36,826 nucleotides of DNA from an uncultured Clostridia bacterium. GTDB lineage: Bacteria; Bacillota; Clostridia; TANB77; CAG-465. The position numbers were made by a program, and so were the translations under genes. The stretch covers positions 1 to 36,826 of the forward strand of contig CALXAR010000010.1 in assembly GCA_944386345.1 (NCBI GenBank). Reading direction: 5' to 3'. Below the pieces are notes generated by a model. That model did no database searches. It was given only the letters and a program-made list of their open reading frames with translations, and was not told where the DNA came from. Below, one piece after another: positions 15,627 to 30,304 of this stretch; within the stretch, counting starts at the first letter, position 1; each line of letters starts with the position of its first letter.

Positions 15627-16151
15627 TTAAAATTCATATTCTACTATTTTATTGTTTTTTAAACTTAATTTTACATCTATAGCTCTTTGATTTGAACTTC
15701 CTCTAAACAATAGATTATCATCCTTTTTACTCTCATCAAACTTTCCATCAATTAATATATCAGTTTTATCTAATAAGCTAAAGAAATCATTATCTTCATT
15801 TGCCTTTTCTAAAATTTCTTCGATAGTAAATCCTGTATATGTTATAACATCCAAATTGTCATTTAATTTAGATATAAGTTTTACTAAAGTTTTACACTGC
15901 ATAAAAGGTTCCCCTCCGCTTAAAGTAACACCTCTAAGCAATGGATTTGAGTTTATTTTTTCTGCAATAGAGTCTATATCAATATATGTACCCAAACTAA
16001 AATCATGTGTCTGAGGATTATGACAACCTTTGCAATTATGAGGACAGCCTTGCGTAAAAACTACAAATCTAATTCCTGGTCCATCAACAATAGATTCTTC
16101 TATAACTCCAGCAATCTTTAACTTGTCTTCATTATTATAATAGCACATCAT
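15627..16151 (-). CDS. nrdG: Anaerobic ribonucleotide reductase activase (radical SAM)
   Basis: A radical-SAM enzyme that installs the glycyl radical on class III ribonucleotide reductase. The 174 residues are typical. The cluster motif CPHNCKGC gives Cys36, Cys40 and Cys43; GPGIRFVVFTQG precedes it and TLSGGEPF follows. Two adjacent ATGs (16151, 16148) are possible starts and neither has a strong ribosome site. The gene overlaps the upstream 90-residue glycyl-radical-tail gene by 17 bases, which suggests translational coupling. This means the activase is made directly with the peptide it modifies. Confidence 0.95.
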   Translation of the reverse strand: MMCYYNNEDKLKIAGVIEESIVDGPGIRFVVFTQGCPHNCKGCHNPQTHDFSLGTYIDIDSIAEKINSNPLLRGVTLSGGEPFMQCKTLVKLISKLNDNLDVITYTGFTIEEILEKANEDNDFFSLLDKTDILIDGKFDESKKDDNLLFRGSSNQRAIDVKLSLKNNKIVEYEF

Positions 16152-16407
16152 GTTTTACTCTATCTTTTTCTTCCGCTCTTTTTCCATCATTAAATCTATC
16201 TAATGTTCCAACAAGATACCCTGTTATTCTTCTAATTCTTTCAAATGGCACATCATTTGCTAGTGTATAACTCAAATCTATAAAATCACCATTTACATTT
16301 AAATTTAATTCTGCAATCTCTTTACCAGGATTCTTTTCTTTAACATAATTTACATATTCATCTATTTCTTCTTGAGATATCGATTCACCTTTTGTATTAA
16401 TTACCAT
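16135..16407 (-). CDS. Stand-alone glycyl-radical tail of anaerobic ribonucleotide reductase (split NrdD subunit)
   Basis: A 90-residue protein. Its last third (RRITGYLVGTLDRFNDGK, then EKDRVKH) matches the extreme C terminus of E. coli NrdD as I remember it (RRVCGYLG...FNAGK...RRVKHL), where Gly681 in CGYLG holds the radical; here that would be Gly63. Residues 1-55 are unlike NrdD and may form a docking domain. The large NrdD at 16956-19217 ends before this motif. The ATG has GGAGGG upstream, its own promoter lies at 16435-16463, and it overlaps nrdG. Inferred role: radical-bearing subunit that completes NrdD, similar in idea to the spare-part protein GrcA/YfiD of pyruvate formate-lyase. Databases may label such ORFs simply as anaerobic ribonucleotide reductase. 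Confidence 0.75.
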   Translation of the reverse strand: MVINTKGESISQEEIDEYVNYVKEKNPGKEIAELNLNVNGDFIDLSYTLANDVPFERIRRITGYLVGTLDRFNDGKRAEEKDRVKHDVLL

Positions 16408-16434
16408 ATATTTACCCTCCTTTAATATATCTAA

Positions 16435-16463
16435 ATTATATCAATTTTTATTTATTAAATCAA
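16435..16463 (-). promoter_or_regulatory. Promoter of the NrdD-tail/nrdG unit
   Basis: Minus-strand TTGATT (16458-16463), a 17-base spacer and TATAAT (16435-16440), about 28 bases before the ATG at 16407. The hexamers and spacer are the same as in the divergent promoter at 16536-16564. Confidence 0.65.
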
Positions 16464-16535
16464 TTAAAAAATATAGATAATTTTTTATATAACACTATTC
16501 GATTCGTTTTATGTATTCTATTTTTACGTTTTTGT

Positions 16536-16564
16536 TTGATTTTTACTATACTTTATGATATAAT
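16536..16564 (+). promoter_or_regulatory. Promoter of the plus-strand gene at 16622
   Basis: TTGATT (16536-16541), 17-base spacer, TATAAT (16559-16564). A small hairpin (GTAGAT/ATCTAC, arms 16591-16596 and 16604-16609) follows just before the GGGTGG ribosome site and could influence translation. Confidence 0.6.
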
Positions 16565-16621
16565 TCAATATACTAAAATATATAGAAAGGGTAGATTAAT
16601 TATATCTACAGGGTGGAATTT

Positions 16622-16933
16622 ATGAAAAGTAAAGTAAATTCGAAATACACACTTACTTTAAAAAGTATTATTGAAGATTTAAATTACCAAATATTTTATT
16701 CTTTTTCTCGCGGAAAAAGTTGTACATTATATATAGCTCTTTTCGATTCTAATGCAAAATATGATATTTTTTTAAATGATTTACTACTATATAGCGGTAC
16801 CGAATCAATGTGTAAAAAATTATTTAATGATATAAAAAAATTACTAAAAAAAGGAAAATATAACTTAGATGGTAATTCAAAAGAATTTATAATAATAAAA
16901 TACAAAAAAGAACCAAAAGCACTAAAACTATAA
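16622..16933 (+). CDS. Small basic protein of unknown function
   Basis: Not recognised. From ATG 16622 the product has 103 residues; a GTG nine bases upstream would add three, but AGGG spacing favours the ATG. It is Lys-rich, without a signal peptide or membrane helix. The pattern suggests short strands (CTLYIALFD, KYDIFLND) and a helix (ESMCKKLFNDIKKLLKKG), so it is likely a small alpha/beta protein. It sits on the opposite strand exactly between nrdD and the NrdD-tail/nrdG unit, with its own promoter. A link to ribonucleotide reduction is only positional. Confidence 0.6.
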   Translation: MKSKVNSKYTLTLKSIIEDLNYQIFYSFSRGKSCTLYIALFDSNAKYDIFLNDLLLYSGTESMCKKLFNDIKKLLKKGKYNLDGNSKEFIIIKYKKEPKALKL

Positions 16934-16951
16934 ATATAGATTTAGTGCTTT
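16916..16951. terminator. Terminator between nrdD and the convergent small gene
   Basis: An 11-bp perfect stem (AAAGCACTAAA, arms 16916-16926 and 16941-16951) with a 14-base loop lies between the two convergent stop codons and overlaps the end of the plus-strand gene. The T tracts on both sides are short, so efficiency may be moderate. Confidence 0.6.
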
Positions 16952-16955
16952 AAAT

Positions 16956-19217
16956 TTACCTATTTACATACTTTTTATCTCTTTTTAATCTCTCAGTAAC
17001 AAAGTTTGCTTCTTCAAATTCTTTTCTTCCACAGCAAGGACACATATCTTTTATAATTCCAGTATAACCACATATTGGATCTCTATCTACAGGATGATTT
17101 ATTGAACCATATCCTATTCCAGATTCTTTCATACATCTAATTATCTGCTCAAAGGCCTCTAAGTTCTTAGTTGGGTCACCATCAAGCTCTACATAGCTTA
17201 TATGTCCACCATTTGTAAGCTCGTGATATGGAGCCTCAATTTTAATTTTATTAAATGCACTTATTTTATAATATACAGGAACATGAAAAGAATTTGTATA
17301 GTATTCTCTATCTGTTACTCCTTCAATTATACCATATCTTTTTTTATCAATTTTTACAAATCTTCCAGCAAGACCTTCTGCAGGAGTGGCAATTAATGTA
17401 AAATTAAGTCCATCTTTTTGTGACTGCTCGTTCATTCTTTCTCTCATATGAGAGATAATTTTTAATCCCAATTCTCTTGCTTCTTCACTCTCGCCATGAT
17501 GTTTACCAATTAAAGCTTTTAAACACTCTGCAAGCCCTATAAACCCTAAAGTTAAAGTACCATGCTTTAATACTTCTCTTACTTTATCCGTATTTTTTAA
17601 TTTTTCCGAGTCCAACCAAACATGTTGTCCCATTAAAAATGGATAATTATATACTCTTTTGTTTGCTTGAATTTCAAATCTTTCTTTTAATTGATCAATT
17701 ACAAGATCTATCTTCTCATCTAGCATTTCGAAAAATCTTTCTACATTTCCATGTGCTTCAATTCCAAGTCTAGGTAAATTAATTGATGTAAAGCTTAAAT
17801 TTCCTCTTCCACAAGTAACTTCTCGTGATCTGTCATATACATTTCCCATAACTCTAGTTCTGCATCCCATATATGCTACCTCAGTATTGTAATCTCCCTT
17901 TCTGTAATATTGTAAATTAAAAGGAGCATCTATAAATGAAAAGTTAGGAAATAACCTTTTTGCTGAGACTCTACAACTTAACCTAAATAAATCATAATTT
18001 GGATCTTCTTTATTATAATTAATCCCCTCTTTTACTCTAAATATTTGAATTGGAAAAATTGGAGTTTCTCCATTTCCAAGTCCAGCCTCTGTAGCAAGTA
18101 AAACTTTTTCCATAACAAGTCTTCCTTCAGGAGTTGTATCAAGTCCATAATTTATGCTACTAAATGGTACTTGAGCGCCAGCTCTAGAATGCATTGTATT
18201 TAAATTATGAATAAAACTCTCCATTGCCTGATAAGTTGCGTTTTCTACTTCTCTATCAGTATACTTAACTGCAAAATTTTGAATTTTATCTATTACTTTA
18301 TTATCTATACCATACTTAGATAAATACTTCTTTTCTATTTTTAAATATCCATTAGAATCTTTGTATGATGCAACAATGTCCTTGTCATACTTTATTGACT
18401 TTACAACATCCTCTCCTACTTTTTGTGCATCTTCAATATCAGTTAAAAGCTCAATGGCTTTTACTAAATTTTTAAGATATTCTTTTTTATATGATACCCT
18501 AACTCCTTTTGCCATAGCATATTCAAAGTTAGGAATACTTTGTCCTCCATGCTGATCATTTTGATTTGACTGAATTGCAATTGCTGCAAGAGCTGCATAG
18601 CTTCCTATACTCTGTGGTTCTCTTAAAAAACCCTCACCAGTACAAAAGCCATCCTTAAATAGCTTTATCAAGTCTATTTGGCAACAAGTTGTTGTAAGAG
18701 TTAGAAAATCTAAATCATGTATATGAATATCTCCACATTTATGAGCTTGTGAATGTATTGGATTTAACACACACAAATGATAAAAATTCTTTGCACCTTC
18801 TGAGCCATACTTTAACATAGTACCCATAGCTGTATCTGCATTTATATTTGCATTTTCTCTTTTAACATCATTATTTTTTGCATCATCAAAAGTAAGTCCT
18901 TTATATATTTTTATTATATCCGAATTTCTTTGACGAGTCTTATCTCTTTCATTCCTAAACTTTTTATATACATTTAATGTTGAAATATGACCTTCTTTTT
19001 CTAAAACTTCTTCTACAATATTTTGTATATCTTCAGATGATATTTGCTTGTTATGTTGTATTTCTTCTAACCTACTATATACTATTTTTGAAAGTTGCTC
19101 AGACCTTGAGTAGTCTTGTCCACCTATTGAATTAGCAGCCTTATATATAGATTTTGCTATTCTTTCTACATTAAAATTTACTCTTCTACCATCTCTTTTT
19201 AATACTTTTGTTATCAT
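16956..19217 (-). CDS. nrdD: Anaerobic (class III) ribonucleoside-triphosphate reductase, large chain lacking the glycyl-radical motif
   Basis: Reduces ribonucleotides to deoxyribonucleotides without oxygen. The start is ATG 19217 (AGAGGTGA in front), 12 codons inside the longest frame, giving 753 residues. An N-terminal ATP-cone covers about 1-95 and regulates activity. The barrel domain has the thiyl-radical Cys452 in YMGCRTRV and a Cys pair at 178-179. The C-terminal zinc site is PICGYTG...CPCCGR (about 714-730), with Asp where the first Cys is expected. The protein ends at VTERLKRDKKYVNR, where E. coli reads VTRRVCGYLG and continues another 30 or so residues. The radical glycine is thus absent here and appears in the 90-residue ORF 548 bases downstream. 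Not a frameshift: a whole gene lies between. Confidence 0.93.
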   Translation of the reverse strand: MITKVLKRDGRRVNFNVERIAKSIYKAANSIGGQDYSRSEQLSKIVYSRLEEIQHNKQISSEDIQNIVEEVLEKEGHISTLNVYKKFRNERDKTRQRNSDIIKIYKGLTFDDAKNNDVKRENANINADTAMGTMLKYGSEGAKNFYHLCVLNPIHSQAHKCGDIHIHDLDFLTLTTTCCQIDLIKLFKDGFCTGEGFLREPQSIGSYAALAAIAIQSNQNDQHGGQSIPNFEYAMAKGVRVSYKKEYLKNLVKAIELLTDIEDAQKVGEDVVKSIKYDKDIVASYKDSNGYLKIEKKYLSKYGIDNKVIDKIQNFAVKYTDREVENATYQAMESFIHNLNTMHSRAGAQVPFSSINYGLDTTPEGRLVMEKVLLATEAGLGNGETPIFPIQIFRVKEGINYNKEDPNYDLFRLSCRVSAKRLFPNFSFIDAPFNLQYYRKGDYNTEVAYMGCRTRVMGNVYDRSREVTCGRGNLSFTSINLPRLGIEAHGNVERFFEMLDEKIDLVIDQLKERFEIQANKRVYNYPFLMGQHVWLDSEKLKNTDKVREVLKHGTLTLGFIGLAECLKALIGKHHGESEEARELGLKIISHMRERMNEQSQKDGLNFTLIATPAEGLAGRFVKIDKKRYGIIEGVTDREYYTNSFHVPVYYKISAFNKIKIEAPYHELTNGGHISYVELDGDPTKNLEAFEQIIRCMKESGIGYGSINHPVDRDPICGYTGIIKDMCPCCGRKEFEEANFVTERLKRDKKYVNR

Positions 19218-22751: not shown

Positions 22752-24165
22752 TTATCATATCAAGTAATGTATTTAATAAAGTCTTGCATGATTTTAAATA
22801 TAATGTTTCATTTACAGTATGAACATCTTCTACATCAGGGCCTAAAGAGATCATGTCTAAATATGGTAATTTTTCAAAAATCATTCCACACTCCACTCCA
22901 GCATGTATTGCACATATAATAGGATTATTTCCGTTATGATTTGCTTTATATGCTTCAATATATATCTTTTCTAATTTTGAATTCTTGTTATATTTCCAAC
23001 CAGGATATGCACCATATTCACTTATTTTAAAGCCTAAAGACTTTGCGATTTCATTATTATAGTCTTTTACACTATCTTTTTTTGAGTCTATACTTGATCT
23101 TAAAGACTCTATAATTTTAATTTTACCATCTGAAATATTCACTACTCCTATATTTCCAGATGTCTCTACAAGTCCTCTAACATCCTTACTCCATTCAATA
23201 ACGTCCTGTTTAAGATTTAGTATTAATTTTAATACATCAATACTATTTTTATTTGATATTGACATAAATTTAGCTTTCTTTTTATTCTCATGAACACTAA
23301 CAAGCATTCCTGCATCTTCATCTGTAATATCTAAATTTTCAATTATATTATTCATATAATCAATAGGATTATCAGTTGCTGTTGCAAATATAACAGAAGT
23401 CCTATTTGCAATAGCATTATCTTTTGTTCCACCTTTCCACGAAATTATTTCAATATCTTTTATTTCTTTTAAAAGTCTTGCTGCCAAATAATTTGAGTTA
23501 ATTCTCCCTTTATCTATATCTACTCCAGAATGTCCACCATATAAACCGCTAATATCTAATGTAAAAGCTCGCTTCCCTAAATATTCTCTTATCTCATCTT
23601 CTCTTGTATATTCTATGCTTATGCCACCAGCACATCCAACAATTGCTGTGTTTTCCTCTTCGCCATCCAAATTTATTAGATATCTAGCTTCTATGTCTGA
23701 ATAATCAAAATCTCTTGCGCCATTCATTCCAATTTCTTCTTCAGTAGTAAATAGACATTCAATTCTAGGAAGTTTTAAATCCTCCTCATCAAGTAGTAGC
23801 ATTAAAAAGGCAACACCTATTCCATCATCTGCACCTAAAGAAGTATCCTTTGCTTTTAAAATTTCATCTTGCTCAATAATCTCTATTGGGTCTTTAGAAA
23901 AATCATGATTTGAGTCTTCTGTTTTTACACAAACCATGTCGGTATGTGCTTGGAACAATATTGTATCTTTAGATTCATATCCTAAAGATGCTTTTTTCTT
24001 TATTAGTACATTATTATGTTCATCTTTTCTATACCATAAATTTCTCTGTTTAGCAAAATCACATAAATACTCTGCTATTTTATCTTCATGCTTAGAGTTT
24101 CTGGGTACAGCTGATAATTCTTTAAAGAAATTTATTAATTTATAATACATTTTTTCTCTATCCAT
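22738..24165 (-). CDS. pepD: Aminoacyl-histidine dipeptidase (peptidase M20C, PepD)
   Basis: Cytosolic zinc dipeptidase of broad specificity (Xaa-His, beta-Ala-His). The start is ATG 24165, with GGAGG five bases upstream; an ATG four codons earlier overlaps that site. In this 475-residue numbering the metal and catalytic motifs are FQAHTDMV (His74), LGADDGIG (Asp113), TTEEEIG (Glu142/143) and INLDGEEE (Asp167), with the C-terminal CAIHAGVECG supplying the last His. The gene overlaps the upstream sortase by eight bases, so it is coupled to the pilus operon, an odd partner. It may simply ride on this transcript. Confidence 0.95.
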   Translation of the reverse strand: MDREKMYYKLINFFKELSAVPRNSKHEDKIAEYLCDFAKQRNLWYRKDEHNNVLIKKKASLGYESKDTILFQAHTDMVCVKTEDSNHDFSKDPIEIIEQDEILKAKDTSLGADDGIGVAFLMLLLDEEDLKLPRIECLFTTEEEIGMNGARDFDYSDIEARYLINLDGEEENTAIVGCAGGISIEYTREDEIREYLGKRAFTLDISGLYGGHSGVDIDKGRINSNYLAARLLKEIKDIEIISWKGGTKDNAIANRTSVIFATATDNPIDYMNNIIENLDITDEDAGMLVSVHENKKKAKFMSISNKNSIDVLKLILNLKQDVIEWSKDVRGLVETSGNIGVVNISDGKIKIIESLRSSIDSKKDSVKDYNNEIAKSLGFKISEYGAYPGWKYNKNSKLEKIYIEAYKANHNGNNPIICAIHAGVECGMIFEKLPYLDMISLGPDVEDVHTVNETLYLKSCKTLLNTLLDMIKNLV

Positions 24166-25021
24166 TATTACCTCCATCAGTATTTATCTTTATATTATTA
24201 TTTTTCTTTCTACGTTTTTTTATTCCTTTTATCACATAAACAATCAATGCAACAATTAATATAACAATTGCTATGATATATAGATAATAGTCTAATATAA
24301 ATGCCTTAACTCTATCCCAAACAGAGATATCTATTTTTTCTGGCATCTGAGTAATTTTTCCTGTTACAAGTAGTCTATGTGTGTTTATATTCTTAGGAGT
24401 ACATGTCACGAGTGTTACAAGTGTCTCATCTTCTACAATTTGAAGACTATCTGTCTCATCTGGCAAAACTACTTTAATATCAATAACTTCATAATTATTT
24501 GTATTACCTAAGTACTCTACTAAAAATTCATCTCCTACTTGTATCTCATTTAAATTATCTAATATTTTTGCTCTTGTAAGTCCACTATGTCCTGCAATCA
24601 CACTATGTGTACTAGGCTCTCCAGTAGGATAAGATGTATTCTTTAACAGAGATACACCTTTTTGTAAATTATCATTTTCAATCCCATCATATATTGGTAA
24701 TTCAACATTAATTTTAGGGATTATAAGTGTACCAATAACCTCTCCAGTATTTAAAAAATCAAAACTACTAACACTCACATCAACATTAAAGTTTTCGTCT
24801 CCAATATTTATTATTGGACTTTGATCTGATAACTCCTCATTATATTTATTTGATTTATCAAGTTCATTTTCTTTTTCTTCTTGTGACATATTATTTGATG
24901 TATTTTCATAACTATATATGGCTGTAGTTTGATTAAGGTATGATATTACTCTAATTACAAAGGGAAAAATAAATATTAAAAATCCAACTAAAAATAATAT
25001 TTTTGATATAACTTTCCTCAT
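24158..25021 (-). CDS. Class C sortase (pilin polymerase), second of a tandem pair
   Basis: Membrane transpeptidase that links LPxTG pilins to each other. The 287 residues have an N-terminal helix (about 7-29), a helical Glu/Lys-rich linker, then the sortase barrel with the triad His145 (AGHSG), Cys207 (TLVTCTP) and Arg216 (NTHRLLVTG). A C-terminal membrane helix (about 242-264) and a Lys-rich tail follow, as is usual for class C. No DP(W/F) lid motif is evident before the barrel. AAGGA lies before the ATG. It starts one base after its paralogue and ends inside the pepD start region. Substrates are probably the two LPxTG pilins nearby. Confidence 0.93.
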   Translation of the reverse strand: MRKVISKILFLVGFLIFIFPFVIRVISYLNQTTAIYSYENTSNNMSQEEKENELDKSNKYNEELSDQSPIINIGDENFNVDVSVSSFDFLNTGEVIGTLIIPKINVELPIYDGIENDNLQKGVSLLKNTSYPTGEPSTHSVIAGHSGLTRAKILDNLNEIQVGDEFLVEYLGNTNNYEVIDIKVVLPDETDSLQIVEDETLVTLVTCTPKNINTHRLLVTGKITQMPEKIDISVWDRVKAFILDYYLYIIAIVILIVALIVYVIKGIKKRRKKNNNIKINTDGGNNG

Positions 25022-25022
25022 A

Positions 25023-25895
25023 TTATTTTTCCTTCTTTCTTTTTCGTAGTTTTTGGACTATTGTTAAAAGAATTAACAATACTATAATAATTATAATAAA
25101 TATAGCCATACTTTTATTTTTCTTAATGAACTCCAAAAACAATACAAAATCATTTTCTTTAAGATTTTTTTCATTATCTAATAAATTATTATCTTCTACT
25201 ACTTGGATTGTATTATCTGTATCTTCAACTTTTTCTCCAGTTACTAGCAGTCTATGTGTATTTACAGTTTTAGGAGTACACGTTACAAGTGTTACTAAGC
25301 ACCTATTATCTTCAATTTTTAAACTACTTGTTTCGTCCGGAAGAACTACTCTTTTATCTATAACCTTATATTTTGTCATCTCTCCTAAAAAAGTTATATA
25401 AAACTCATCATCTAAATTTAGCTCATTTAGATTGTCAAAGATTTCTGCTTGCGATATACCTGTATGTCCTGCAAGTATAGCATGTGTACTTAAATTGCCA
25501 TTTGGAAGAGATGTATTTTCCATATGAGCTACACCCTTTAATAGATTATTTGATGTTACTCCTTCATATATTGGAAGCTCTAAACTAATCTTTGGTATAT
25601 TAATTACTCCAATTAGCTCTCCCAAATCTAAAAAGCTATAAGTACTTTGCTCTTCTGTAGGCTCAATATCGTTTGGGTTTATAACTTTTACTTCTGATGA
25701 ATTTTCTATATTATATTCTTCTGCCTTTTTTTGCTTATTTTCAAGAATTTCTTTATCCATAGCTTCTATCTCTTGATTATAATTAGTAATAATTTCTGTT
25801 TGACTTTTAAATGATAGAAACTTAGAATATATAGGATAAGCAATACAAAAGAAACCACATAAGTATAACATTATTTTTAATATCTTTCTTTTCAT
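25023..25895 (-). CDS. Class C sortase (pilin polymerase), first of a tandem pair
   Basis: A paralogue of the next sortase with the same layout in 290 residues: N-terminal helix (about 7-24), charged linker, barrel with His144 (LAGHTG), Cys206 (TLVTCTP) and Arg215 (NTHRLLVTG), a C-terminal helix at about 263-281 and a basic end. The sequence VLPDET between the barrel strands is shared by both, pointing to tandem duplication. AGGTG lies before the ATG. It follows the LPLTG pilin gene after a hairpin terminator, so its expression may depend on read-through. Two sortases with two pilins may mean each polymerises one, or that one anchors the fibre. Confidence 0.93.
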   Translation of the reverse strand: MKRKILKIMLYLCGFFCIAYPIYSKFLSFKSQTEIITNYNQEIEAMDKEILENKQKKAEEYNIENSSEVKVINPNDIEPTEEQSTYSFLDLGELIGVINIPKISLELPIYEGVTSNNLLKGVAHMENTSLPNGNLSTHAILAGHTGISQAEIFDNLNELNLDDEFYITFLGEMTKYKVIDKRVVLPDETSSLKIEDNRCLVTLVTCTPKTVNTHRLLVTGEKVEDTDNTIQVVEDNNLLDNEKNLKENDFVLFLEFIKKNKSMAIFIIIIIVLLILLTIVQKLRKRKKEK

Positions 25896-25921
25896 TTTAA
25901 CACCTATATAGATTATATATC

Positions 25922-25961
25922 AAAAAAAAGAGAATAACTAGTATTTAGCTAATTATTCTCT
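25922..25961 (-). terminator. Intra-operon terminator between pilin and sortases
   Basis: A nine-bp stem (AGAGAATAA/TTATTCTCT, arms 25929-25937 and 25953-25961) is followed on the minus strand by a run of eight T. It lies between the LPLTG pilin and its sortases, where partial termination would give more pilin than sortase mRNA. A TATAAT just after it might be a secondary promoter. Confidence 0.8.
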
Positions 25962-25981
25962 TAAATATTCTCTTTTAATTA

Positions 25982-27739
25982 TTAGTCTTTTACTTCTTCT
26001 TTTTTAATTGATTTTGCTACAACTATCAATCCAACACCTAGTACTGCAAATAGTACAGTTCCTATTCCACCAGTTAATGGTAGTGTTATTGGCTTTTTAT
26101 TTTCAACTTCAATTTCTGCAGTATGTGATGTTCCATTTACATTTACAGCTTGTGGTTCACTTAAAAGTGTATAAGATTTAGTCTCGCCCTCTTCTACATA
26201 TGTAGGAGCTTGTGTCTCAACTAACCAATACTCTCTAGAAGTTTCATCATCATTATATTCTAAACCATTAATCTGAGCATATCCACCAACTGTTGTAACT
26301 TCTATATCTTGTCCATCAGTTCCTTTTATAAATACACCATTTTGTGCATTCTCCTTAGTTGTTGCTATTTTAAATTTAGCACCATCTAATAATTCGTCTT
26401 CACTATTTATTTTCTTTATATTTAATCCACCAGTTACTACCTTTGATGAATCTTGTGTAGTATTTGTATCTTCTTGCTCTCCATCTGTATTTACTTTATT
26501 AGTATACTCAAGAGTAGCTGTATTTATGTTTCCATCTTCACCTAATGTAGCATTTGTCATATCAAGTTTTGCAGTATAAGTTATAACTAAAGTAGTATAA
26601 TCTTCCATTTTTGAAGTATCAAAATCTAATACAAAATTTCCTGTTTTTGTATAATCTGTATCTTGAGCTAATTCTTTTTCTGTATTTTGATCTCCAACTA
26701 AAGCTTTAACTTGAAGATTTTCAACATTTGAAAGTCCTGCTGGTAACTCATCTGTTAAAGTATATGTCTCCAAATCTTGTATAACAGTTGGTACATCTAC
26801 TGTTATTTTAAATGTTAATGTATCAGTTAAACTTGCACTTGTTAGATCTGCATATTCTCCATCTTGATTTAATACTTGTTTTACAACCTCAGGCTTTTCA
26901 TTAACAATTTCAATTTGTCCAACTTCTGCAGCTGGTGCAGCAGTATTTGTTCTAGTATCTGTTACAACAACAGTACCATCAGGTTGTACCTCAATTTCTG
27001 ATGGATATTTATTATCCATTATATACTCTTCTCCAACAACTGTTTCAACTACTCTAAATTTTGCTGGTTCACCATTGTATGTAATTGGAAGATTCTCAAG
27101 TGTAATCTTACCCTCTTCATTAGTTGTTAAAGTTAAAACTTGTCCATCTACAACGTAGTCTGACCATGCGCCCCAAGCACCATCTACAGAAGTGCTTATT
27201 TGAACTTTAAATTCAACTCCTTGCATTGGATTTACGCCATCAGTTTTTGTTACAACAGCCTCACCAGATGCAACTTTAACTTTTGGAAAAACTTCTATAT
27301 CATATACCCAACCATCACCAGTATCATTTGTCATTGGTACATCTACTAAAAATGATTCTGGTACCTCTGATGTTCCTGTAGGAACGTCTGTTACTTTTAC
27401 ATAGTATCTTCCTAAAACAAGCTCATCAAAAACTACTATTCCCTCGCTATTTGTAACAAGAGTTTCAACTGGTTGAGCAGTTTTAATATATTCCTCTGCT
27501 TGCTCTTTAGTTGTTACTGTTGTTCCAGCAACTTCGTCTACTCTATATAGTGTATATTCAACTCCTGCTAATGGTTGTGTCTCATCTAATACACCATTTT
27601 TTTGGCTTAAAGTAGTTACTGTAATTGACCCTTCTCTACTAGTATCAACTATTGTATCTGTTACTGCTAAAACAGTATTTGAAATAGTTACAACAACTAG
27701 CATTAAGATCATTGCTAAACAAATCTTATTTTTCTTCAT
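25982..27739 (-). CDS. LPxTG backbone pilin with SpaA-type and D2 isopeptide domains
   Basis: A 585-residue surface pilin. Residues 1-25 form a signal peptide. An SpaA/Cna-B-like domain (about 36-140) leads to the pilin motif WVYDIEVFPK (144-153), whose Lys153 would accept the next subunit. A second Cna-B-like domain covers about 158-280. A fimbrial D2-type domain (about 282-430) follows, then a third Cna-B domain with the E-box YWLVETQAP (504-512). The end has LPLTG (553-557), a membrane helix and a charged tail. Together the pilin motif, E-box and LPxTG define a major pilin of the SpaA type. Two class C sortases follow directly. A related pilin lies beyond the ytaF-like gene. Confidence 0.94.
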   Translation of the reverse strand: MKKNKICLAMILMLVVVTISNTVLAVTDTIVDTSREGSITVTTLSQKNGVLDETQPLAGVEYTLYRVDEVAGTTVTTKEQAEEYIKTAQPVETLVTNSEGIVVFDELVLGRYYVKVTDVPTGTSEVPESFLVDVPMTNDTGDGWVYDIEVFPKVKVASGEAVVTKTDGVNPMQGVEFKVQISTSVDGAWGAWSDYVVDGQVLTLTTNEEGKITLENLPITYNGEPAKFRVVETVVGEEYIMDNKYPSEIEVQPDGTVVVTDTRTNTAAPAAEVGQIEIVNEKPEVVKQVLNQDGEYADLTSASLTDTLTFKITVDVPTVIQDLETYTLTDELPAGLSNVENLQVKALVGDQNTEKELAQDTDYTKTGNFVLDFDTSKMEDYTTLVITYTAKLDMTNATLGEDGNINTATLEYTNKVNTDGEQEDTNTTQDSSKVVTGGLNIKKINSEDELLDGAKFKIATTKENAQNGVFIKGTDGQDIEVTTVGGYAQINGLEYNDDETSREYWLVETQAPTYVEEGETKSYTLLSEPQAVNVNGTSHTAEIEVENKKPITLPLTGGIGTVLFAVLGVGLIVVAKSIKKEEVKD

Positions 27740-27789
27740 ATACCCTTTTCTCCCCTTTTTTTCTAGATTATCTATCCAATCTCTTCTAT

Positions 27790-27818
27790 ATTATACATTA
27801 TAATATATTTTTTTACAT
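27790..27818 (-). promoter_or_regulatory. Promoter of the LPLTG pilin with shared upstream box
   Basis: Minus-strand TATAAT (27790-27795), with ATGTAAAAAAAT (27807-27818) exactly 11 bases upstream instead of a consensus -35. The identical 12-mer stands at the same distance at the other pilin gene. The leader is about 45 bases. Confidence 0.55.
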
Positions 27819-27907
27819 TAATTGTAACAAAAATTTAACATTAAATTATATTTTTTAATAGCAAAACTATTATCCATATCATTAAATATAATAAAGGAGT
27901 AAATTTA

Positions 27908-28435
27908 ATGAATATTATTTCAATAATTTTATATACAATCTCTATAAATTTAGACAATATTCCAATAGGTATATCTTTTAAATTAAAGAACAAAAAAAGC
28001 AAATTTAATGAAATTTTTAAAATATCAATATTAACAAGTTTAATTACTTTTATATCCATGATTATTGGTACAAATATATCATCTATATTACCAATAAAAT
28101 TTGCAAATCGTCTTGGTGCTTCTGTGCTTATTGCTTTTGGAATATATTTATTAATAAAAGAATATAAATCAAAAGAAATTACAAATAATACTCAAGCATC
28201 TGAAATATATGAAATTGTCCTTCTCTCTATAAATAATATATTTGCTGGTATAAGTGCAAGTATTACTGGCATAAATTATTTTTTTGCTTCAATTTTTAAC
28301 TTTATATTTAGTACCATCTTTTTATATTTAGGAACTATAATTGGTAAAAAGATAAATAGCACAAAATTAGAGCTATACTCTAATTATTTATCTGCAATTA
28401 TACTAATAATACTTGGTATTATTGAATTAAAATAA
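27908..28435 (+). CDS. YtaF/MntP-like small membrane protein
   Basis: The 175-residue protein has about six hydrophobic helices in two similar halves. The first contains ISINLDNIPIGISF, which resembles the helix with a conserved Asp in the MntP manganese exporter and in YtaF (SLDSFxVGxxYGL). The second half shows the internal repeat LLSINNIFAGISASITG. It fits YtaF, a sporulation-associated membrane protein, better than MntP, but is shorter than the 200 or so residues expected. AAGGAG lies eight bases before the ATG. It is divergent from the LPLTG pilin and convergent with the LPATG pilin, so it splits the pilus locus. Function uncertain; metal transport is only a family guess. Confidence 0.75.
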   Translation: MNIISIILYTISINLDNIPIGISFKLKNKKSKFNEIFKISILTSLITFISMIIGTNISSILPIKFANRLGASVLIAFGIYLLIKEYKSKEITNNTQASEIYEIVLLSINNIFAGISASITGINYFFASIFNFIFSTIFLYLGTIIGKKINSTKLELYSNYLSAIILIILGIIELK

Positions 28436-28471
28436 AAAACCTAGAATTAAAACTACATTCTAGGTTTTTTT
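28434..28471. terminator. Bidirectional terminator between ytaF-like gene and LPATG pilin
   Basis: A perfect 14-bp stem (arms 28434-28447 and 28457-28470, core CCTAGAAT/ATTCTAGG) with A and T runs at its base can terminate transcription in both directions. It serves the two convergent genes. Confidence 0.9.
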
Positions 28472-28483
28472 ATTCAAATTATA

Positions 28484-30304
28484 TTATTGCTCATTAGCTT
28501 TTTGCTTTTTATTTAAAACAATTGCTCCTCCCATAATAGCTATACCTGCAATAGCAAATATTGCAATACCAATTCCACCAGTTGCTGGTAGAGTTAATCC
28601 TTTTGAATTTTGGATTTGGATAGGTAAAGTATGTGTTGTTTTTCCAACTCTTACTTCTACAGGTGATTTTAATATATTATAGTATTTTGTTTCTCCATCT
28701 TCTTGATAACTTGGAGCTTGTGTTTCAACAAGCCAATATGATACATCAGTACCATTATCTGCATAAGCAAGTCCTTCTATTATAGCTTGTCCTTGAGCAT
28801 CTGTCTCTACTTCAATATCTTCTCCTGTACTATTTTTTACAAAGACTCCATTTTTAGCATTTTCTTCAGTTGTAGCTATCTTAAACTTTGCTCCAGGTAA
28901 TCTATTATCCACATTACCTTTTTCAATCTTTTCTATAGATACTGCTCCTGTATGCACTTCTGCAGAATCTGTAATAGTTGTTGTGCTTAATTCTACACCA
29001 TCTTCACTAATATTATTTGTATATTCTAGTGTTGCTGTATTTATATTTCCATCTCCACCTATTACTACATTATTTGAATCAAAAGATACATCATATGTAA
29101 CTACAATAGCTGAATACAAATATAAATTAGCACCCGCATTAAAATTAATCTCTAATCCAGTATCAGATAAAGTATATAGCTCTTCTGGAATAACTACTTT
29201 TCCTGTTGGTGTCATACCTTCAACTACTATGCTATCTCTATCTAAAACAAGACCTGTAGGAATATTATCTGTAATTTTATATGTTGACATATTAAGAACT
29301 GACATAGGGACATCTGCAGTTATACTAAATGTTACCTTATCACTCATAAATGCACTCGCACTATCAACAAAGTCTCCAGCGCTATTTTTAACTTTCTTTA
29401 TTATTTCAGGCTTCTCATTCATATATGTAACTGATGTTAGGTTATCTCCCTCAACAACATTTGTAATAAAATATTTTTTAAATTGTTCTAGTGACTGGTA
29501 ATTAGTATAAACTTTTCCATCTTCACCTACATAAAAAAATAAATCGGAAATAATGTTATTATTTATATATCTCTCAGGAGTGGAAATTTCTATTAACCTA
29601 TATATAACATCCTCTTCATAAGCGCCGCCATAATTAAAATATGCAGGTAAATTACTTAATGTAATTTTTCCTTCGCTATTTGTTGTTACAGTTAGAACAC
29701 TATCTTCACCTTCAGGAATATAATCTGTCCAAACAGATAAAGGTAAGTCATCTAAACTAAATGCTGAACTACGTTTCATTACTTGCACTTTAAATGTAAC
29801 TCCACTTAGTGGTTTACCTGCTAAATCTGTTTTAATAAGTTCAAAATTTCCATAGGCTGTTTGTATTTTAGGTTCTACTGTTATATTATAGTCTAATCCT
29901 GTACCTTGCGCATTTGTCATTGGTATATCTACCAAAAAATTCTCGTAGCTTAGCACACCATCCATATCATCTGTCACTTTTACATAATATCTACCTAATT
30001 CTAAATTATCAAATACAACTGTTCCTGTACTATCTGTTGTTTTTGATATTCCTTGAATATTATTTTCTTCTATATAATATTCACCATCTACCCTATCTTC
30101 ACATGTTTCATCCACTTTATATACTGTATATTCTATTCCTTCAAGTGGTGGATTTGTTGTTGTATCTTCATTTTGTTGCTCATGTGTAATAATTGTAAGT
30201 GAGCCTGTTGTTGGTTCTTCAGCATTTACATAATTACTACCTATACAAGCAACTAATATAAAAGCTAAAAAAATAGCTAGTACTTTACATTTTCTTAGTT
30301 TCAT
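28484..30304 (-). CDS. LPxTG pilin, paralogue of the LPLTG backbone pilin
   Basis: The 606 residues have the same domain order as the pilin at 25982: signal peptide (1-28), Cna-B-like domain (to about 135), a pilin-motif-like LDYNITVEPK with Lys146, second Cna-B domain, D2-type domain (about 298-450), third Cna-B with E-box YWLVETQAP (523-531), LPATG (572-576), membrane helix and tail. The Trp of the pilin motif is replaced by Leu and the aromatic before PK by Glu, so it may polymerise less well or with another sortase. Shared stretches such as DGNINTATLEYTN show a common origin. It has its own promoter and terminator and is transcribed apart from the sortases. Confidence 0.93.
   Translation of the reverse strand: MKLRKCKVLAIFLAFILVACIGSNYVNAEEPTTGSLTIITHEQQNEDTTTNPPLEGIEYTVYKVDETCEDRVDGEYYIEENNIQGISKTTDSTGTVVFDNLELGRYYVKVTDDMDGVLSYENFLVDIPMTNAQGTGLDYNITVEPKIQTAYGNFELIKTDLAGKPLSGVTFKVQVMKRSSAFSLDDLPLSVWTDYIPEGEDSVLTVTTNSEGKITLSNLPAYFNYGGAYEEDVIYRLIEISTPERYINNNIISDLFFYVGEDGKVYTNYQSLEQFKKYFITNVVEGDNLTSVTYMNEKPEIIKKVKNSAGDFVDSASAFMSDKVTFSITADVPMSVLNMSTYKITDNIPTGLVLDRDSIVVEGMTPTGKVVIPEELYTLSDTGLEINFNAGANLYLYSAIVVTYDVSFDSNNVVIGGDGNINTATLEYTNNISEDGVELSTTTITDSAEVHTGAVSIEKIEKGNVDNRLPGAKFKIATTEENAKNGVFVKNSTGEDIEVETDAQGQAIIEGLAYADNGTDVSYWLVETQAPSYQEDGETKYYNILKSPVEVRVGKTTHTLPIQIQNSKGLTLPATGGIGIAIFAIAGIAIMGGAIVLNKKQKANEQ

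Follow-up and report, generated by a model that had tools for sequence, protein, structure and literature searches.

How can a class III ribonucleotide reductase work when its catalytic chain ends before the radical glycine, and why does an unrelated gene lie between that chain and the small gene that carries the glycine loop? These questions are raised by a locus in the draft genome (66 contigs; G000 below) of an uncultured Clostridia bacterium, of which we analyzed a window, meaning the whole stretch of 36,826 nucleotides. We consider it likely that the locus encodes a two-chain class III reductase, that the small chain descends from a spare part, and that the intervening gene, here called the orphan, was inserted later.

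The truncated NrdD and the predicted small glycyl-radical protein

On the minus strand, nrdD (16956–19217) codes for a truncated catalytic chain of 753 aa that matches positions 1–535 of the 562 in PF13597 (E 3.3e-192) and carries an ATP-cone (PF03477, E 6.2e-17). Its C452 aligns with the thiyl Cys416 of the P. copri NrdD 8p23; with its catalytic barrel, thiyl cysteine, ATP-cone, and an nrdG gene alongside, the chain has the traits of class III. The local alignment to P. copri NrdD stops one residue before the radical Gly711; the window chain ends in ERLKRDKKYVNR, and the radical glycine is not on the same chain. The numbering of Cys416 and Gly711 is that given in passages of PMC11226230, under a presumed offset of four tag residues that fits Cys416 as well. 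The nrdG gene (15627–16151, minus strand) encodes a radical SAM activase of 174 aa (TIGR02491, E 1.8e-44; 151.4 bits against a cut-off of 126.1) and overlaps the end of the small gene that precedes it.

This small gene (16135–16407, minus strand), also called the tail, encodes a putative stand-alone glycyl-radical protein of 90 aa, with an N-domain at residues ~1–53 and a loop at 54–88. It matches positions 532–562 of PF13597 (E 4.7e-8), so that the family model is cleanly parted between NrdD and the small protein. The predicted radical glycine, G63 (codon 16219–16221), aligns with Gly711 of the P. copri enzyme (profile A5), and the N-domain, of about 50 residues, lies outside the NrdD match. 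PF13597 (NRDD) is the only family above cut-off, with no match to PF01228 (Gly_radical) up to E 1. A structure model reached a pLDDT of 67.6 overall, about 80 in the N-domain and 44–55 in the radical loop, and no solved fold matched it at E 0.001. Weak matches of the N-domain in a 341-aa ORF were taken as chance. The first-pass annotation had spoken of two halves of NrdD. This description is apt insofar as the small piece bears the NrdD glycine loop, but, judged from a sequence that includes its own N-domain, the tail is a whole separate protein and not simply the other half. The literature searched, which covered few subscription papers and preprints, does not describe an NrdD-type glycyl-radical protein that stands alone.

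Several further observations concern these proteins and the rest of the window. In the C-terminal finger of the window NrdD (16956–17080), one Cys precedes GYTG, in place of the CxxC of P. copri NrdD; the single Cys also occurs in relatives with intact tails, and one usual zinc ligand seems to be replaced in this NrdD subfamily. The NrdD core is 40–69 residues above the usual 709 in G001, G008, G011, G017, G018, G021, G022, G023, and G027, and the alignment breaks in these over-long cores, where present, fall near positions 240–320. Some truncated NrdDs (among G016, G026, G033, and G022) end in TCCN or ECCFN or hold TCGEC, and many small proteins (L061–L092) end in CC or CxC; the window’s own proteins are without such cysteines. 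Ends of the CC, CxC, and TCCN type presumably resemble the redox cysteine tails of class I and II reductases. The nrdG gene of G001 (L077, 622–1168) appears as two overlapping frames in the assembly. Elsewhere in the window (24158–30304), the translations suggest two genes for sortase-like proteins and two for large surface proteins of the LPxTG type, likely a pilus or adhesin cluster.

The gene between nrdD and the tail

The orphan (16622–16933, plus strand) converges with nrdD and diverges from the small-protein gene, which nrdG follows. The first-pass annotation had described a small basic protein on the plus strand at this place, and the frame is indeed present, with 103 aa and a computed pI of 9.58 (or 106 aa if translation begins at the in-frame GTG, position 16613). 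Searches of Pfam, NCBIfam, PHROGs, and PADLOC gave no match up to E 1, and a fold model from the one sequence (pLDDT 53.5) was too poor for use, with no fold match at E 0.001. Kinship to the small protein was rejected (hhalign probability 0.3%).

Homologues were sought with the protein as query against 57 relatives and with a six-row profile (A2) against 36 family genomes. They were found only in G000, G007, G019, G010, G016, and G026, that is, in six of the 28 genus genomes, with E < 1e-37 to the profile, which was built from them, and with all other profile matches at 0.02 or worse. ORFs of 500–700 aa that weakly match residues 21–94 of the query are other proteins, none of them in the profile list. 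All six copies lie between nrdD and the small-protein gene, which answers in the affirmative the earlier question of whether homologues always sit beside split nrdD genes. Their open frames span 92–103 aa; in G010, a stop in the alignment falls beyond the end of its 98-residue frame. The dN/dS ratio is 0.125 for G007/G019 and 0.139 for G016/G026, and 0.31–0.72 in more distant pairs, at high synonymous divergence. The other five copies are 27–58% identical to that of the window, against 79–93% for the small protein of these genomes.

The twin divergent promoters of the first-pass annotation, with equal hexamers and spacing, were borne out. Promoter-like sites of the form TTGATT-17-TATAAT lie at 16435–16463 (minus strand, for the small-protein/nrdG unit) and 16536–16564 (plus strand, for the orphan), each with TG before the −10. 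The pattern occurs exactly twice in the 36.8-kb window against 0.11 expected, and none of 100 shuffles reached two. Both sites recur in the six orphan-bearing genomes with a constant 17-base spacing, TATAAT being kept at 12 of 12 sites and TTGATT at 11 of 12; the orphan site is exact in all six, and the sole −35 deviation is TTGAAT in G010 at the site of the small-protein/nrdG unit. As a plain promoter scan of the region yielded 38 promoter-like sites against 36.7 expected, a number not above chance, the weight rests on the exact match and its conservation. The hairpin reported beside the ribosome site of the orphan (16591–16609, plus strand; 6-bp stem, 7-nt loop) is conserved across the six genomes, with 96.7% of cells paired (one unpaired) and two of the six pairs changed on both sides, but its energy is unremarkable (z −0.57) and its covariation modest, as 44 of 500 shuffles score as high.

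Open frames, dN/dS, recurring promoters, and the 5′ UTR hairpin together make the orphan most likely a real, fast-evolving gene; in itself it is ordinary and of low interest. A strong hairpin (16916–16951; −15.3 kcal/mol, z −5.48) marks the convergent end of the orphan and nrdD and also folds at this position in the other five orphan-bearing genomes. We read it as a predicted two-way terminator; a terminator scan did not include it in its list.

NrdD is without its glycine in 17 of the 28 genus genomes, six with the orphan and 11 without. In these 11, nrdD, the small-protein gene, and nrdG are contiguous, and the gap between the first two is −1 to 59 nt, against 527–548 nt in the six. We therefore read the orphan as an insertion that parted a once contiguous operon, one of the possibilities named in the first-pass annotation. 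The split does not depend on the orphan, since 11 of the 17 split genus loci are without it and no match was seen at five others (G033, G405, G418, G419, and G410). On the NrdD tree, the orphan requires two changes (one or two over bootstraps, one in 55%), and a single orphan clade is not rejected (AU p 0.424). The contiguous operon is probably the older state, with the orphan inserted once or twice. This lineage-specific insertion probably brought a promoter for each side as well as the convergent hairpin, and its main likely effect would be that the small subunit and NrdG are transcribed independently of NrdD.

The orphan product had also been proposed to regulate or assist the reductase, in the manner of the Crp/Fnr-type gene that elsewhere diverges from the small-protein gene. 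Nothing found shows such a role. The divergent twin promoters in six genomes, the occurrence of orphan homologues at nrd loci only, and the loci L116, L130, and L123, where the small-protein gene and that of a cNMP-binding regulator diverge, fit this proposal; it is at odds with the orphan’s lack of any match to a helix-turn-helix or other family in Pfam and NCBIfam, its absence from so many split loci of the genus, and its low identity between genomes next to that of the small protein. The fold model, being unusable, lends the proposal no help. We regard regulation or assistance by the orphan as unlikely.

Occurrence and probable use of the split enzyme

The small protein is present in all 28 genus genomes, in 11 of which NrdD retains its glycine besides. 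Among the family loci outside the genus, four have a complete nrdD beside nrdG and no small gene, and that of G033 is split. Across 385 genomes of the order, only G033 and the 28 genomes of the genus gave a full-length small protein at E 1e-8, all else that matched in this sample being NrdD C-termini, and the distribution of the small protein within the order is patchy. In the genome_contigs collection, relatives occur in at least 568 stretches; the 80 analyzed further match most of the protein and include named isolates such as Ruminococcus flavefaciens. Ruminococcus is heavily represented among these 80 loci, which are not independent of one another, and for 79 of them no nrdD homologue was found in the fetched stretch (24 of the 79 stretches are shorter than 9 kb). 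Searches of 35 of these genomes detected a complete NrdD in 30, a truncated one in four (in two as the only NrdD), and none in three. The four truncated NrdDs outside the family end in ERIRRIAH, VERPKKFMV, GFERIKRIR, and ERIKRIRREQGQERE; in three of the four, the chain stops short of the glycine, inside ERI(K/R)RI or shortly past it.

Viral contigs hold the small protein as well. The best 80 of 414 IMG/VR loci all have a small stand-alone frame (L199–L278), and five of these 80 have a truncated nrdD without the glycine, the small protein, and an nrdG homologue together. The viral NrdD in those five loci is 60–62% identical to the window NrdD (L274 and L276 are near-identical). The remaining 75 are without nrdD in the fetched stretch, the viral contigs being up to 251 kb long. 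Two unannotated faecal phage records cover 86% and 98% of the small protein. It is possible that phages carry spare parts for NrdD, comparable to T4 Y06I.

On a tree of 40 NrdD cores, the tail state needs eight changes (7–8 over bootstraps), at least five of them on well-supported branches, which implies several independent changes of tail state in NrdD. These changes were not necessarily all losses, because the two loop copies are kept alike within genomes and regain by conversion is possible. Over 93 nt in the 11 two-loop genomes, the native and stand-alone loop DNA are on average 95.6% identical within a genome and 89.2% between genomes, and the own-genome copy is the closest in 8 of the 11.

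Is the split enzyme in use? A search for class I and II reductases, positive in 11 of 14 known genomes as a control, found none in the 28 genus genomes or in five others. Six genomes showed no reductase besides the split NrdD, namely G009 (96% complete), G015 (94%), G022 (88%), G033 (90%), G418, and G419, although at 88% and 90%, and in the two genomes without a figure, a reductase may have been missed; many of the genomes, that of the window included, are draft or metagenome assemblies. Of the 17 split genus genomes, the 14 that form the large split clade also have a second NrdD, which was not found in the remaining 14 genomes of the genus; the copy in G003 is in two pieces. The window genome belongs to this clade, so the split enzyme may not be essential there. 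Its second NrdD (G000:C24; L096, 3227–6661) is complete, with 730 aa and the loop RRTCGYIG, adjoins a radical SAM activase-like gene, and is divergent from a Crp-type regulator.

One could therefore suppose that the truncated NrdD has become a relic or serves as a regulatory chain, that the second, complete NrdD does the work, and that the small protein serves that enzyme or nothing. This would suit the window genome, where the second NrdD lies beside its activase-like gene, and the 13 other split genus genomes with a second NrdD, but not the six genomes without another detected reductase. Nor would a relic be expected to show dN/dS values of 0.03–0.125, as found in nine NrdD pairs (truncated chains in seven of them; window against G007, 0.068), or to keep its thiyl cysteine. 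Moreover, the loop of the second NrdD in the window genome is its own and distinct from RRITGYLVG in the small protein. We find this reading quite improbable and continue to favor a two-chain enzyme.

Relation to known spare parts and split reductases

At 79 small-protein loci, the 137 nearest long ORFs include 19 of the cNMP_binding family, 18 rubrerythrins, nine S-adenosylmethionine synthetases, and five or six of flavodiiron-type families. Rubrerythrin and flavodiiron proteins serve in oxygen defence, and NrdG uses S-adenosylmethionine as its cosubstrate. None of these families is among the 25 commonest in 108 control ORFs 3.7–4.6 kb away (of 124 such ORFs, 16 were left out), so that each occurs there at most twice. 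With this ceiling of two, one-sided Fisher tests gave p values of 0.0005 for cNMP_binding, 0.0008 for rubrerythrin, and 0.07 for S-adenosylmethionine synthetase, for loci that are related to one another. The small-protein gene is flanked by a cNMP-binding gene and a rubrerythrin in L116 and L130 (R. flavefaciens), and in L123 (Christensenellaceae) a Crp-type regulator and a flavodiiron-type protein lie beside it.

Among the closest known systems are GrcA/YfiD and T4 Y06I. Passages of Andorfer et al. 2021 (PMC8683613) name YfiD and Y06I as the only validated spare parts, both for pyruvate formate-lyase (PFL), and raise, as a speculation, the possibility of spare parts for further glycyl radical enzymes. 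Like these proteins, the one described here is small, stands alone, and joins an N-terminal extension to a copy of a glycyl-radical region, and, as with GrcA/YfiD, some copies lie beside oxygen-defence genes. The residues of PFL just before the cleavage site are needed for YfiD binding, according to a section of PMC8683613, and the truncated NrdD likewise retains the residues up to the would-be glycine. The differences from GrcA/YfiD are that the loop is of the NrdD and not the PFL type, that the N-domain, described as disordered for YfiD in PMC8683613, is modelled as folded here (pLDDT ~80), that in this genus the gene lies beside nrdD and nrdG, and that it supplies the only glycine for this NrdD in 17 of the 28 genus genomes. 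P. copri NrdD 8p23 and T4 NrdD with NrdG share the ATP-cone, barrel, thiyl cysteine, and activase gene with the window enzyme, whose radical glycine differs in being on another polypeptide. The split class II reductase NrdJa/NrdJb, as outlined in portions of PMC9669993, also pairs a catalytic chain with a C-terminal partner, but it is B12-dependent and has no glycyl radical.

Given the oxygen-defence neighbors and the PFL precedent, the simplest reading is that the small protein is a spare part for oxygen-cleaved NrdD, which would have become the sole radical carrier after loss of the glycine. The small protein would dock on the truncated NrdD, NrdG would activate its loop by radical SAM chemistry, and the glycyl radical would start ribonucleotide reduction in trans. 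A small subunit cleaved by oxygen could then be swapped for a new one. By descent, it would be a stand-alone spare part of the GrcA/YfiD kind that turned obligate once NrdD had lost its own glycine.

Phage reductases offer another comparison. Parts of PMC3653736 describe the split nrdA of Aeromonas phage Aeh1, with mobE inserted, as well as fragmented phage nrdD genes, which resemble the present locus in having reductase pieces as separate genes and, in Aeh1, an inserted gene between them. These pieces are fragments of one chain, whereas the small protein has its own domain and stands alone in many genomes. If the orphan were likewise a selfish insertion, for instance a free-standing homing endonuclease such as mobE, its place between reductase parts would follow these phage precedents. 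We give this only a slim chance, as the orphan has no endonuclease domain match in Pfam, NCBIfam, PHROGs, or PADLOC up to E 1 and lies between two genes, not within a conserved coding site. A phage origin was rejected as well, with no match in phage records and none of 60 pattern matches in viral contigs confirmed. Finally, although the window comes from one draft genome, it is very improbable that the split is an assembly error or that the pieces are rejoined by an intron, intein, or frameshift, since a like break occurs in 17 of the 28 genus genomes and elsewhere, the orphan is on the opposite strand, the small protein comes with an N-domain and a start of its own, and no Rfam intron was found at gathering score.

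The two-chain reductase that we prefer would provide a candidate spare part for the enzyme that anaerobic DNA synthesis requires, and natural genomes with only the split enzyme make the spare-part question directly testable. On balance, we lean toward the broader view that Clostridia and phages have repeatedly arrived at a two-chain class III reductase, with the oxygen-fragile glycine placed on a cheap, exchangeable subunit. NrdD would then be encoded nearly as oxygen damage would leave it, with the spare part as the normal part; the stand-alone gene is found partly with oxygen-defence genes, and the gene inserted at this locus would give the small protein and the activase a promoter of their own. 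If true, a repair part has turned into an obligate subunit, several times over.
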